Positions 3,602 through 9,597 of a DNA stretch of 21,449 nt are shown here, one piece after another. The translations under genes were made by a program, and so were the position numbers. The DNA comes from a virus. The notes below the pieces were generated by a model that did not search any database, was not told the origin of the DNA, and was given only the letters and a program-made list of their open reading frames with translations. The stretch covers positions 1 to 21,449 of IMG/VR virus record IMGVR_UViG_3300042556_000778; one strand, given 5' to 3'. Numbering within the stretch: the first letter of the stretch is position 1; the number at the start of each line of letters is the position of its first letter.

Positions 3602-3844
3602 ATGACTGGAATAGATTTTGTTTATTGGTTACAAGGGTTCTTAGAAATACAAAACCCACAATCTATAAATAAAGAACAAATAAATATAATAAAGGATCAT
3701 ATAGGTTTAGTTTTAAAAAAAGAAACCCCTAAATATTTAACTATAGATAATAATAATGTTAAATTTGATTCTACTTTACCGTGGAATGATGGCGATAAAA
3801 TTAATGAAAATTTTTGTTTTAGTTTATTTGAAGGAAGTTGTTAA
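3602..3844 (+). CDS. Conserved small phage protein (YWLQGFLE family)
   Basis: This is an 80-residue protein with a good ribosome site (AGGAG at 3591-3595, six bases ahead). It begins MTGIDFVYWLQGFLEIQNP and continues with INIIKDHIGLV and KKETP. This N-terminal pattern is shared by small hypothetical proteins of many phages; no function is known to me. There is no membrane segment or catalytic motif. The stop overlaps the next start (TAATG), and the ribosome site of the next gene lies inside this one, so the two are coupled. It could be a small head, packaging or regulatory protein. Confidence 0.6.
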   Translation: MTGIDFVYWLQGFLEIQNPQSINKEQINIIKDHIGLVLKKETPKYLTIDNNNVKFDSTLPWNDGDKINENFCFSLFEGSC

Positions 3845-5061
3845 TGAAAGCTATAATTACAGGAATAACAGGAATGGACGGTTCGCACCTTGCAGATTTT
3901 TTATTAGAGAAGGGTTATAAAGTCGTTGGAGTTAAAAGAAGATCTAGCCAACCAAACGAAGATAATATAAAAAACGCCCTATTAAATAAAAATTTCGAAT
4001 TAGAAGAGGGCGATATAACAGATGTTTCAAGTATAATTAAGGTGCTTAAAAAACACAAAGATGTAGACGAAATATACAATCTTGCTGCTCAGTCTCATGT
4101 TGGCACATCATTTAAATCACCAGGATTAACTTGGGATGTAACGGCAAAGGGATGTATGAATATTCTAGAGGCTATGGTAGATCTTGAACTGACACATGTT
4201 AAGTTTTATCAAGCTAGTAGTTCAGAAATGTTTGGTTCATCTTTTTCCGCCCTTGTTAATGGAGATTACTCTACAGATGTAAAAGATTTCGACGTATTAA
4301 CTGATCGTGGTCGTAAAATTTTCGAAGAAGTAAAAACCATATATCAAGATGAAAATACTAAATTTTTACCACAATCGCCTTATGCTATAGCTAAATGTGC
4401 AGCACACGAAACCGTTAGACTATATAGAAACGCATATAATATACATGCCTCTTGCGGCATATTATTTAATCATGATAGTGAACGAAGGGGTGAATTATTT
4501 GTGACTCGCAAAATAACAAAATGGATGACGGAATTTTTTTCTTTTATGAAGAATAATTCCCTAACCCTTAACAATATAATGGATACATCAGGAGATAAGA
4601 TAATATTCTCTAAGAGATTAGATAAAAGGTATGTTATAGACGTTGATAATATGGGAGAAGAAGCCCTATTAAACCCCCTTTATTTTTCTAAGATACGCCT
4701 TGGGGATATTGATACATATAGGGATTTGGGTTATGCAGGCGATTATGTTAAGGCTATGTGGTTAATGTTACAGCAAAATACTCCTGATGATTATGTTATC
4801 TGTACTGGGAATACTATAAAGATTAGGGATTTTTTAAAATTGTCTTTAGATTCTTGTAAAGACTATTTGAAGATAGAGGGTGATATTGATATTAACGATT
4901 TATTTGTGCAAGATCCTAAATTTATGAGACCTGCTGAAGTACCGTTTTTAAGGGGTGATTATTCAAAAGCTCATGAAAAATTATCTTGGAGTCCAAAAGT
5001 TTTTATAAATAGTTTGGTAGATATAATGGTGAAAAATGACTTCGAGAGATTGGGATTCTAA
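3844..5061 (+). CDS. gmd: GDP-mannose 4,6-dehydratase, phage variant
   Basis: This enzyme converts GDP-mannose to GDP-4-keto-6-deoxymannose, the first step to GDP-fucose, rhamnose, colitose and related sugars. Start ATG 3844 is chosen over TTG 3838 because AAGGAAG (3831-3837) sits six bases ahead. The 405-residue product has the NAD(P)-binding motif TGITGMDGSHLADFLLEKGY (7-26), RRSS after the second strand, and NLAAQSHVG (79-87). The active site is SSSE (S126, E128; the usual Thr is Ser) and YAIAK (Y180, K184). ILFNHDSERRGELFVTRKIT (206-225), RDLGYAGDYVKAMW and MRPAEVPFLRGD confirm GMD specifically. It is longer than the usual approximately 370 residues because of two insertions, roughly 133-170 and 232-285, while the C-terminus is short. 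It lies between terS and terL. Scattered CGT/CGC arginine codons differ from the AGA-rich neighbours, hinting at separate acquisition. Confidence 0.9.
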   Translation: MKAIITGITGMDGSHLADFLLEKGYKVVGVKRRSSQPNEDNIKNALLNKNFELEEGDITDVSSIIKVLKKHKDVDEIYNLAAQSHVGTSFKSPGLTWDVTAKGCMNILEAMVDLELTHVKFYQASSSEMFGSSFSALVNGDYSTDVKDFDVLTDRGRKIFEEVKTIYQDENTKFLPQSPYAIAKCAAHETVRLYRNAYNIHASCGILFNHDSERRGELFVTRKITKWMTEFFSFMKNNSLTLNNIMDTSGDKIIFSKRLDKRYVIDVDNMGEEALLNPLYFSKIRLGDIDTYRDLGYAGDYVKAMWLMLQQNTPDDYVICTGNTIKIRDFLKLSLDSCKDYLKIEGDIDINDLFVQDPKFMRPAEVPFLRGDYSKAHEKLSWSPKVFINSLVDIMVKNDFERLGF

Positions 5062-5305
5062 GGAATATCGTTCATGGAGAGCGAAAATAAGAAGGAGAGA
5101 TAAGTATACGTGTCAGATGCCTAATTGTGGTTCTAAAAAAGCTATAAAGGTACATCATATACTTCCATGGTCAAGATTTCATTCTAATAGATACGATGAA
5201 AAAAATGGTATTTGTTTATGTAGAAAGTGTCATGATTCTATAGCAAAAAAAGAACATTTTTATGCTAAGATGTTTTTAGATATAGTGAGAAGAAAATATG
5301 AGTAA
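5036..5305 (+). CDS. HNH endonuclease
   Basis: This is an 89-residue single-domain HNH nuclease. Its start lies 26 bases inside the dehydratase gene. The motif set is complete: CQMPNC zinc knuckle, VHHILPW (the paired His), an Asn in EKNGICLC, and CRKCH closing the second knuckle and supplying the last His. The N-terminus (WDSKEYRSWRAKIRRRDKYT) is basic and typical of the family. Small HNH proteins are commonly found next to terminase genes, where some are needed with TerL for DNA cleavage during packaging. That is a plausible role here, though a free-standing homing nuclease is the alternative. The absence of an intron or gene split around it, and the overlaps with both neighbours, favour a resident gene. 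Confidence 0.85.
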   Translation: MTSRDWDSKEYRSWRAKIRRRDKYTCQMPNCGSKKAIKVHHILPWSRFHSNRYDEKNGICLCRKCHDSIAKKEHFYAKMFLDIVRRKYE

Positions 5306-5801
5306 AATTCCCGAATATTGGGTTATTAAAGATACTAGAGAAAAAAATGGATATGATTTCACCCCATTCTTACTTTGTAAGGGTACTAAAGTATCTAAAC
5401 TTGATACTGGAGATTATACTATAGATGGATTACAAGATAGATTAACTATAGAAAGAAAGGCTAGCCCTTCTGAATTCGCTAATAATCTTGGTAAAGAATA
5501 TAAAAGGTTTTATAATGAATTAGGTAGAATGAGTAAATTTGAAGCAAAGTTTTTAATATTAGAATTTACTTTTGATGATTTAATACAATTTCCAAAAAAT
5601 AGTCAAATACCTCCATCATTAGAATCCGGTGTTAGAATTACCGGTAAATTTATGCACAAAAGAGTTGTAGAAATACAGTTAGATTTTAATATACAAGTTG
5701 TATTTGCGGGTGACAAATTTGGAGGTTTTTTCTATACACAACGAATAATGAAAAATATGAATGAAAAATATAGGGATTTAATAAGATGCGAAACCCTCTA
5801 G
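5298..5801 (+). CDS. ERCC4 (XPF/Mus81)-type nuclease
   Basis: This 167-residue protein matches the ERCC4 structure-specific nuclease domain. It has IKDTREKNGYDF (early acidic/RE motif), KLDTGDYTI, then LTIERKASPSEFANNLG, which holds the ERK-type catalytic motif, followed by YNELGRMSKFEAKFLILEF. The C-terminus (FGGFFYTQRIMKNMNEKYRD) is helical. No helix-hairpin-helix or helicase domain is attached, so this is the minimal nuclease. Family members cut branched or flapped DNA. In a phage packaging context it could resolve replication branches before or during packaging, or act in recombination. The start overlaps the HNH gene by eight bases and the end overlaps the protease gene by 16, so the four genes from 3844 to 6436 are coupled. 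Confidence 0.82.
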   Translation: MSKIPEYWVIKDTREKNGYDFTPFLLCKGTKVSKLDTGDYTIDGLQDRLTIERKASPSEFANNLGKEYKRFYNELGRMSKFEAKFLILEFTFDDLIQFPKNSQIPPSLESGVRITGKFMHKRVVEIQLDFNIQVVFAGDKFGGFFYTQRIMKNMNEKYRDLIRCETL

Positions 5802-6438: not shown

Positions 6439-9400
6439 ATGGCTAATATTGATTATGTTAAAAATGCTTGGCTCAATTTAACACAAGAAGAGTATGAGGG
6501 ATCTTTTAATACATACGATTTTATGTTAAATGGTTCTGAAGATTTTCATTATAGATTATCTTATATAATGTCTAATCCAGAATATTTTTCTTTTACAGTT
6601 AAATCTGTATTAGGTATAGAATTATTACCTATACAGTGTGCTATACTAGAAGAAATTTGGAAGAGAAAATTCCCTATGTTAATTGCGACTAGAGGATTTT
6701 CAAAATCTTATATGCTCTCTATATATTCTATATTAAGAGCTTTATTATTAGATGGTAGGAAAATAGTGATTGTCGGTGGCGGATTTAGACAATCTAAAAT
6801 ATTATTTGAATATATGGAAACTATGTGGAACAATTCTCCACTCCTCAGAAGTATGTGCGATGATAGAAGTGGTCCTAAAAAAGATACAGATAGATATAGC
6901 TTAAGAATAAATAATAGTATTATAGTAGCATTACCATTGGGTGATGGGTCTAGAATTAGAGGACAAAGAGCGCATGATATAATTTCCGACGAATTCGCTT
7001 GTTTGCAGAAAGGTTCTTTAGTAGAAACAGGGAATGGATTAATAAGAATAGAAGATTTTGATTCTGCTAGAGGCATATATTTACCAACAGGTGATAATAT
7101 TAATAAGTATGAATCGCCTTCTAAATTTATTAAAACCCCTAAAACAGACGTTTATGAAGTAAAATTAGAAAATGGCTATGTTATAAGATGCTCTAATAAA
7201 CATCAGTTAATGACTCCAAATGGGTGGAAAAATGTGCTATCTTTACAAGACGGAGATTGGATAGAAAAAACCCCAAAAAATATATCTAAGAAATTTGGCG
7301 ATGATAATATAGATAAAAATATAGCTTGGTTATTAGGAGTTCTAATTAGTGAAGGTTCAATTGTTGATAGAAAAAGAATTTCTATTTCTACTACAGATTT
7401 TAATTTAGTAAAAAAGATAGTTAAGATATTTGGTTGGAAATTTAGCGAAAGACCAGCGTATATTGATAAAAGAGGGTGGGTATGTAAGAAAAGTTATACT
7501 ATCTATACAGACGATGAAATTTTTAGAAACAAATTATATTTACTTGGTTTAGATTATTCTTACGCAGAAGATAAAATAATTCCTTATAGCATATTAAAGT
7601 CAAATAAAAAAACGTTATTACATTTCTTGAATGGTTTATTTGATGGAGATGGGTCTTGTTTTTATTGGAAAGATCGTGGAAAAGAAAATTTAATAGGTTT
7701 AGCTTATTATTCTGTTTCAGAAAGGCTTTGTAGAGATGTCCAAATTATAGCAAATAAATTGGGTTTTGATGGATATATTAATAATAGAGATTCGGAAATA
7801 AGTAATAAAAAACAATGGTTCGTAAGATGGAACAATGAAAATGCTTTAGAATTTTCAAAATTATTAAAAATTAATAGGTTTGAAAATATTTTAAACAACT
7901 GTCAAATACCTAAAAAACCTAAACATATAACTTATGATAAATCTAGAAATAAATGGAAAGTCCAAATTAAGTATTTAGATAAATTTATACAAAAAAGATT
8001 TAAAACGAAAATTGAAGCCGAAGATTTCTTAGAAATAATAAAAAATAAAATACAATATAGTAAAATTGTATCTATAAAAAAATTAGATATAAAAGAACAT
8101 TTATATGATTATTATTTACCTATTACGCATAGTTTTTACGCAGAAGGATATAGACAACATAATACAATTCCTAAAGATATATTTGAAACAGTTGTATCTG
8201 GATTTGGTGTAGTATCTTCTAGCCCTATAGAAGGTGTTAAAAAAGCCGCAGCTAAGAAAAAGGCCGAAGAAGAAGGTATAATTTTAGAAAAAGAGCAATT
8301 AGATTATTACGGTTCTACGATACCAAATCAAATTATCTTATCTGGAACGGCTTATTATGATTTTAATCATTTTGCTGATTATTGGAAAAAATGGAGAAAG
8401 ATAATAAAAAGTAAGGGGGATATATCTAAACTAGGCGAAATTTTTTCTGAAGGAGTTCCGCCTAATTTTAAATGGTCAGATTATTCCGTTATAAGAATTC
8501 CATATGAATTAGTTCCAGAGGGTTTTATGGACCCAGAGATGGTTGCTAGATCTAAAGCTACTGTTCACAGTGGTATATATATGATGGAATATGGGGCCGT
8601 TTTTACTAAAGATTCTCAAGGGTTTTTTAAAAGATCTTTAATACAATCATGTGTACCATCGATTGATAATATAATGAGAGATTCTAAAAATGAAGAAATA
8701 AATTTTAATTCATTATTAATAGGCGATAAAAATAAAAAATATATATTTGGCGTAGACCCAGCTTCTGAAGTAGATAATTTTAGTATAGTAATTATAGAAT
8801 TAAATGGAGATCATCGCAGAGTAGTATATTGTTGGACAACCAATAGATCGCAACATAAAGATTTACAAAAGGTTGGACTTTCTACAGAAAAAGACTTTTA
8901 CGCTTATTGTACTAGAAAAATTAGGGATTTAATGAAAAGATTTCCTTGTTATCGTATAGCTATGGATGCTCAAGGTGGCGGTATAGCTATTATGGAAGCT
9001 CTACATGATTCTGATAAAATACAAGAAGGGGAAAATTTAATTTGGCCGGTTATAGATGAAGATAAACCTTCTGATACAGATGATGAAAAGGGTTTACATA
9101 TATTAGAGATGTGTCAATTTGCTAAATATGAATGGTTAGCAGAAGCAAATCATGGTTTAAAGAAAGATTTAGAAGACAAGGTGTTAATTTTTCCATCTTT
9201 TGATAATTCTACAATAGGTTTGGCTACAGCAGACGATATATTAAAAAGTAGAACCAATGATACGTTAGAAGACTGTGTTTTAGATATAGAAGAATTAAAA
9301 GAAGAATTATCTTTAATAGAAATGAGTCAAACGCCAAACGGTAGAGATAAATGGGATACTCCAGAAGTAATTTTAGGCGCTGGCAAGAAAAAGAGACTTA

Positions 9401-9597
9401 GAAAAGATAGATATTCTTCTTTATTAATGGCTAATATGGCGGCTAGGATAATAGACAGAACAAAGACGCCTGAAGAATATCAGTTTTATGGCGGTTTTTC
9501 AGACTCTTTAGGAAAATCGAAGGGTTCTTCACCCAACCAAAAAATGTATAACGCCCCTAATTGGTTCTCAGATAGTATGAATGGTGTATACTATTAG
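6439..9597 (+). CDS. terL: Terminase large subunit precursor with in-frame intein
   Basis: TerL is the ATP-driven packaging motor and genome-cutting nuclease. The 1052-residue precursor becomes about 664 residues after removal of the intein (residues 188-575). N-extein: Walker A-like ATRGFSKSY (83-91) and Walker B IISDEFA (181-187). C-extein: SGTAYYDFNHF (635-645, coupling motif), then the RNase H-like nuclease with Asp773 in FGVDPASE, Asp843 in AMDAQGGG and Asp990 in KDRYSSLLMAN. After splicing the junction reads DEFA-TIPKDIFETV, a normal terminase continuation. The ribosome site AAGAGG lies six bases before ATG 6439. The gene follows the protease by two bases and precedes the portal, as usual. 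Activity should depend on splicing, because the intein separates the Walker B acid pair from the rest of the ATPase domain. Confidence 0.95.
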   Translation: MANIDYVKNAWLNLTQEEYEGSFNTYDFMLNGSEDFHYRLSYIMSNPEYFSFTVKSVLGIELLPIQCAILEEIWKRKFPMLIATRGFSKSYMLSIYSILRALLLDGRKIVIVGGGFRQSKILFEYMETMWNNSPLLRSMCDDRSGPKKDTDRYSLRINNSIIVALPLGDGSRIRGQRAHDIISDEFACLQKGSLVETGNGLIRIEDFDSARGIYLPTGDNINKYESPSKFIKTPKTDVYEVKLENGYVIRCSNKHQLMTPNGWKNVLSLQDGDWIEKTPKNISKKFGDDNIDKNIAWLLGVLISEGSIVDRKRISISTTDFNLVKKIVKIFGWKFSERPAYIDKRGWVCKKSYTIYTDDEIFRNKLYLLGLDYSYAEDKIIPYSILKSNKKTLLHFLNGLFDGDGSCFYWKDRGKENLIGLAYYSVSERLCRDVQIIANKLGFDGYINNRDSEISNKKQWFVRWNNENALEFSKLLKINRFENILNNCQIPKKPKHITYDKSRNKWKVQIKYLDKFIQKRFKTKIEAEDFLEIIKNKIQYSKIVSIKKLDIKEHLYDYYLPITHSFYAEGYRQHNTIPKDIFETVVSGFGVVSSSPIEGVKKAAAKKKAEEEGIILEKEQLDYYGSTIPNQIILSGTAYYDFNHFADYWKKWRKIIKSKGDISKLGEIFSEGVPPNFKWSDYSVIRIPYELVPEGFMDPEMVARSKATVHSGIYMMEYGAVFTKDSQGFFKRSLIQSCVPSIDNIMRDSKNEEINFNSLLIGDKNKKYIFGVDPASEVDNFSIVIIELNGDHRRVVYCWTTNRSQHKDLQKVGLSTEKDFYAYCTRKIRDLMKRFPCYRIAMDAQGGGIAIMEALHDSDKIQEGENLIWPVIDEDKPSDTDDEKGLHILEMCQFAKYEWLAEANHGLKKDLEDKVLIFPSFDNSTIGLATADDILKSRTNDTLEDCVLDIEELKEELSLIEMSQTPNGRDKWDTPEVILGAGKKKRLRKDRYSSLLMANMAARIIDRTKTPEEYQFYGGFSDSLGKSKGSSPNQKMYNAPNWFSDSMNGVYY
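7000..8163 (+). other. Intein with LAGLIDADG homing endonuclease, inside terL
   Basis: This coding segment is 388 residues. It begins with Cys188 (CLQKGSLVETGNGL, block A) and ends with YRQHN, penultimate His574 and terminal Asn575. Thr576 is the +1 extein residue. The block B equivalent is CSNKHQLMT (251-259), with Ser in place of the usual Thr of TxxH. HLYDYYLPITHSFYAEG (554-570) is block F. The endonuclease has both LAGLIDADG helices, WLLGVLISEG (297-306) and FLNGLFDGDG (396-405), with acidic residues in each. Residues about 496-535 (ITYDKSRNKWKVQIK and on) resemble an AP2-type DNA-binding module. The insertion site, just after the Walker B DEFA, is among the most conserved sequences in terminases, as expected for a homing element. 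Confidence 0.93.

Follow-up and report, generated by a model that had tools for sequence, protein, structure and literature searches.

Inteins in the large subunit of the phage terminase (TerL) are already established, those in the Walker B motif included (PMC5050341), and several inteins within one TerL have been described as well (PMC7156551). TerL is the commonest host gene of mycobacteriophage inteins (~40%), and five TerL inteins tested in a reporter, among them one in Walker B, splice quickly; published assays further showed cleavage of intein-free alleles by two other TerL inteins (PMC5050341). The TerL1-e intein of Gaia gp2 in particular was shown to splice in the reporter (PMC5050341). 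The intein described here adds to these known cases from an uncultured clade.

The window, that is, the whole stretch of 21,449 nucleotides analyzed, is the record of a linear virus of 21.4 kb and represents a fragment. The terL open reading frame encodes a large terminase, with Walker A, Walker B and an RNase H-like nuclease in one protein. Matches to PHROG terminases were obtained for the window protein and are stronger for the intein-free homolog encoded by contig L006 (5e-25), for which a structural model of modest confidence, low in the ATPase part, shows a fold like T4 gp17 and HK97 TerL. A prohead protease (ClpP-like) is encoded upstream of terL and head genes lie downstream. Just 5′ of the protease and terL, an HNH endonuclease gene is followed by an ERCC4-type nuclease gene (5036-5801), both conserved in contig L002. 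We also noticed a GDP-mannose 4,6-dehydratase-like gene (3838-5061) that its family model matches in three stretches, below the equivalog cutoff; compared with the model, two in-frame insertions are present (at about residues 140-175 and 228-285), and L002 has similar ones. A putative tail fiber protein (1454-2257) has collagen-like GPxGxxG repeats near its N-terminus.

Among GenBank phages, the nearest TerL is only ~26% identical to that of the window, too distant for a named phage to be given as a relative, and sequence searches of the PDB found no TerL relative. Many IMG/VR contigs, on the other hand, encode TerLs 60% to 78% identical to it; this terminase clade is common in environmental data and uncultured as far as the searched collections show. 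A single match came from a genome collection, contig L214 (VFHP01000009.1, 93.7 kb) in a metagenome-assembled genome (MAG) bin of the SAR202 cluster, whose TerL is 100% identical to that of L006; it is either a possible host hint or a mis-binned virus, and was considered too weak for a host assignment.

Features of the intein-containing terL gene, with positions in the window
Feature	Positions	Strand	Basis
terL ORF, intein-containing large terminase precursor, 1052 aa	6439-9597	+	PHROG terminase matches
N-extein, residues 1-187, last four DEFA (184-187)	6439-6999	+	Alignment with empty-site relatives
Walker A / P-loop ATRGFSKS, residues 83-90, intein-free in the window	6685-6708	+	Sequence
Walker B IISDE, residues 181-185	6979-6993	+	Sequence
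Class-1 intein, codons 188-575, 388 aa, Cys1 to Asn388	7000-8163	+	Pfam/NCBIfam, fold match, empty sites
Block B SNKH (S65-H68 of intein; CSNKH with the preceding Cys)	7192-7203	+	Sequence
LAGLIDADG homing endonuclease domain, limits approximate	7282-7869	+	Pfam Hom_end, LAGLIDADG_3
LAGLIDADG motif 1 WLLGVLISEG, catalytic E118	7327-7356	+	Sequence
LAGLIDADG motif 2 FLNGLFDGDG, catalytic D217	7624-7653	+	Sequence
AP2-like tail, intein residues ~308-349, putative extra DNA-binding domain	7921-8046	+	Predicted fold, weak profile matches
Blocks F and G, HLYDYYLPITHSFYAEGYRQHN; His387-Asn388 at 8158-8163	8098-8163	+	Sequence, alignment
C-extein, Thr576 (+1) to stop	8164-9597	+	Sequence, alignment

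A sequence-only reading had described a 388-residue insert in terL with a leading Cys188, two LAGLIDADG motifs and a terminal His-Asn followed by Thr, and this proved codon-exact on re-reading, with Cys188 of the ORF starting at nucleotide 7000, His-Asn at residues 574 and 575, and Thr576 as the +1 residue. Its placement "exactly after" Walker B needs a small correction: the site is at the motif and DEFA lies directly 5′ of the insert, but the insertion falls two residues past the Walker B Glu. When the insert was searched alone, Intein_splicing (5.6e-12), LAGLIDADG_3 (2.6e-12) and Hom_end (5e-6) of Pfam all scored above their gathering cutoffs, and the NCBIfam model TIGR01445 (intein_Nterm) gave 26.1 bits against a cutoff of 24.5. 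An AlphaFold model of the intein (pLDDT = 80.8) is matched by Foldseek to PI-PfuI (5e-15), TliVMA and PI-SceI inteins. With Cys1, an SxxH Block B, a C-terminal His-Asn, a +1 Thr and the splicing profile and fold, the insert is assigned as a class-1 intein carrying a two-motif LAGLIDADG endonuclease and is predicted to splice. It is somewhat AT-richer than its extein (GC 25.5% and 31.4%, respectively).

Relatives of the window show what the gene looks like without the insert. Nearly all of the best 80 TerL relatives read DEFA↓S-IPRDIFE (the arrow marks the insertion point) with no insert, and a pattern scan recovered the exact empty Walker B site in at least 120 contigs, compared with 7 contigs carrying an occupied junction in a scan of like strictness. 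These relatives align across the junction, in agreement with the earlier claim that excision restores a continuous terminase, and their exact empty sites led us to reject a structural domain of the enzyme; the sequence-only reading had named the same segment, kept as such a domain in related terminases, as fatal to its proposal. The same reading had proposed a comparison with empty sites of related phages, which is at its closest in the near-isogenic pair L219 and L226 (83-93% nucleotide identity in the flanks): in L219 the Walker B site is occupied and a second site, GA↓VF, is empty, and in L226 the reverse is found. The closest TerL to that of the window among the matches listed, from L002 (78% identity, same upstream gene order), is likewise empty at Walker B and carries a different intein of 406 aa (L002:4490-5707) at GDG↓SKIRGQR, some 14 residues further upstream. 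Homologous inteins at the Walker B site were found in about ten other contigs; they were located solely through junction-pattern scans of contigs, and a direct search with the intein itself found no close relatives.

The same-site inteins of these contigs appear to have traveled independently of the genes that hold them. Between L003 and L086 the inteins are 80.6% identical in nucleotides (dS = 1.44) but the exteins only 60-63% (dS from 2.6 to saturated), and between L084 and L085 the corresponding values are 87% (dS = 0.55) and 71-77% (dS of at least 2.3). Identity falls sharply just past the 3′ end of the intein, and at its 5′ end the transition falls inside a 30-codon bin containing the junction. 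Inteins so much more alike than their own exteins indicate horizontal movement, and dN/dS values of ~0.06 and 0.12 for the endonuclease in two homolog pairs indicate that it is maintained; from these alignments we conclude that the same-site inteins of the relatives moved horizontally with their endonuclease under purifying selection. The last move of the window copy itself cannot be dated, because its nearest intein relative, that of L085, is only 54% identical (the L085 extein is 58-63% identical to that of the window). Taken with the empty sites, this comparison identifies the window insert as a homing element rather than a structural domain, with DNA cleavage as its predicted activity.

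A closer inspection of the endonuclease shows that the acidic catalytic position is kept in both LAGLIDADG motifs of the window intein (E118 and D217). The endonuclease is followed, ahead of the C-terminal splicing blocks, by an additional segment, the AP2-like tail, in which residues 310 to 348 are predicted as β-β-β-α in the AlphaFold model, the order found in the AP2 fold. HNH endonuclease families match it through their C-terminal ends, weakly (1e-4 to 1e-5) but repeatedly, and the Pfam AP2 profile reaches it solely in the homolog from L219, at 0.008 and under the cutoff, and is not called in the window copy. Two shortened inteins at the same site, in L087 (262 aa) and L227 (227 aa), have no intact LAGLIDADG motifs and keep the splicing blocks, and they are the only ones among eight aligned same-site inteins in which the tail is missing. 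Since the tail is lost together with the endonuclease and not with splicing blocks, it most likely serves DNA recognition rather than splicing. In PI-PfuI, too, an additional DNA-binding domain separates the endonuclease from the C-terminal splicing region; a literature search on that domain found nothing. A paper pairing "AP2" with LAGLIDADG was set aside, AP2 there being a protein or plasmid name.

We therefore favor, at a probability of roughly 0.93, a mobile class-1 LAGLIDADG intein inserted two residues past the Walker B Glu, in both its identity and its general mechanism, and infer from it in vivo splicing, cleavage of DNA and the role of the tail. The splicing blocks and both endonuclease motifs are all intact in the window. 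Cys1 would undergo an N-to-S acyl shift, followed by transesterification to Thr+1 and cyclization of Asn388 assisted by His387, and a final acyl shift to a peptide bond would leave a ligated terminase with a computed length of 664 aa and release an intein of a predicted 45.7 kDa. During co-infection the endonuclease, probably helped by the AP2-like tail, would cut a relative's terL that lacks the intein, at the codons for DEFA↓S/T-IPRDIFE, which hardly vary, and repair would then copy the intein in. The decayed mini-inteins found at the Walker B site in L087 and L227 agree with this homing cycle, which predicts them.

The sequence-only reading had also proposed that splicing sets the time at which the packaging motor becomes active. 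One part of this is retained: with the intein inside the catalytic core of the ATPase, an inactive precursor is to be expected, and the motor would presumably start to work only after excision. A conditional switch, delaying the motor until a signal such as late infection, DNA or redox, goes beyond this, and control of that kind was proposed by the authors of the cyanophage Mic1 genome for its two TerL inteins (PMC7156551). For the window intein we regard it as unlikely, however, as no feature of conditional splicing was seen, the Walker B site is occupied in few contigs and intein-free relatives package without an intein, occupancy differs even between the near-isogenic L219 and L226, and the TerL inteins tested in the reporter spliced quickly (PMC5050341). 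Rare, patchy occupancy together with movement independent of the exteins is what is expected of a selfish homing element. The reading had further singled out the +1 Thr and the SNKH of Block B as uncommon choices that may affect splicing rate. Both residues were read correctly and both turn out to be typical of the lineage. In the TerL set, mostly gathered with patterns that allow Ser or Thr, the +1 residue is Thr in the window and L002 and Ser in all others; L002, being empty at Walker B and also reading DEFA↓T, places this Thr with the extein lineage. SxxH is present in eight of the eight aligned same-site inteins, so that no special argument about splicing rate is called for.

That the block stays in the protein, as a permanent domain or as a dead, non-splicing intein, is very improbable. 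Some inteins are indeed known as unspliced precursors, and splicing here is a prediction from sequence, but exact empty sites in relatives and the intactness of every splicing residue both speak against it, and because tailed phages cannot do without terL, an insert next to Walker B that no longer splices would be expected to be lethal. Removal at the RNA level as an in-frame intron, for which the precedent is that phage genes can hold in-frame open introns, is hardly credible given the continuous frame, the intein-fold splicing blocks that end exactly at the boundary, and an Rfam search that found no match in the window. The mobile intein remains by a wide measure our preferred explanation.

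Across the clade, junction scans of contigs, in which some contigs are duplicates, place inteins at four sites of terL: Walker A at GK↓S (site a, 16 contigs), GDG↓SKIRGQR (site b, 5 contigs), Walker B at DEFA↓S (site c, 7 contigs in addition to L219/L222, L227 and the window) and GA↓CF, ahead of the nuclease (site d, 9 contigs). Genes with two inteins occur in L003, L227 and L219 (a and c), L226 (a and d), and L236 and L090 (b and d). The terL of L087 (IMGVR_UViG_3300044998_001357, 148.8 kb; minus strand) has three inteins (a, b and c) in 1723 codons, with a decayed endonuclease in the Walker B one. We think it probable that terL of this clade is an intein hot spot, with four sites within or close to the motor core, several two-intein alleles and one allele whose three inteins would all need to splice to yield a single motor subunit, and that the Walker B LAGLIDADG endonuclease and its AP2-like auxiliary domain are lost together. 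To our knowledge, no terminase with three inteins has been reported; the literature searches nearest to this subject turned up none, which is no proof of novelty. As a separate observation, Walker A in the window reads RGFSKS, not RGFGKS, and in L086 similarly RGMSKS, and both are empty at GK↓S, the intein site occupied in relatives.

Alone, the window intein would be one more terminase intein, and its value lies in the comparative set that it opens: many terL alleles lacking an intein, full inteins, mini-inteins without an endonuclease and two near-isogenic phages that differ in occupancy, all at one defined Walker B site. Such a set suits tests of the phage homing cycle and of how a motor protein copes when one, two or three splicing events are obligatory. 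Its nearest counterparts are the IMG/VR terL inteins of L084, L085, L003, L086 and L219, which share the insertion point and the domain order including the tail, are 35% to 54% identical to it, and differ in having Ser at +1 where the window has Thr (exteins 55-66% identical where measured). PI-PfuI and the archaeal VMA inteins (PDB: 1dq3, 7qsu, 7qss) have the same splicing fold and two-motif LAGLIDADG architecture by fold comparison, at 15% to 19% sequence identity and in unrelated host genes. The TerL intein of Psychrobacillus phage Perkons was rejected as a counterpart, as it occupies the P-loop site in another terminase family. In cyanophage Mic1, one TerL intein is in the ATPase domain and has an endonuclease, and a second is in the nuclease domain (PMC7156551); the window TerL has a single intein, and the TerLs of its relatives have up to three. 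Among mycobacteriophages, the TerL1-e intein of Gaia gp2 (Kelley et al. 2016, PMC5050341) is, like that of the window, located in the Walker B motif of the large terminase, a likeness compared at the level of the motif; the window enzyme belongs to a different, uncultured family.
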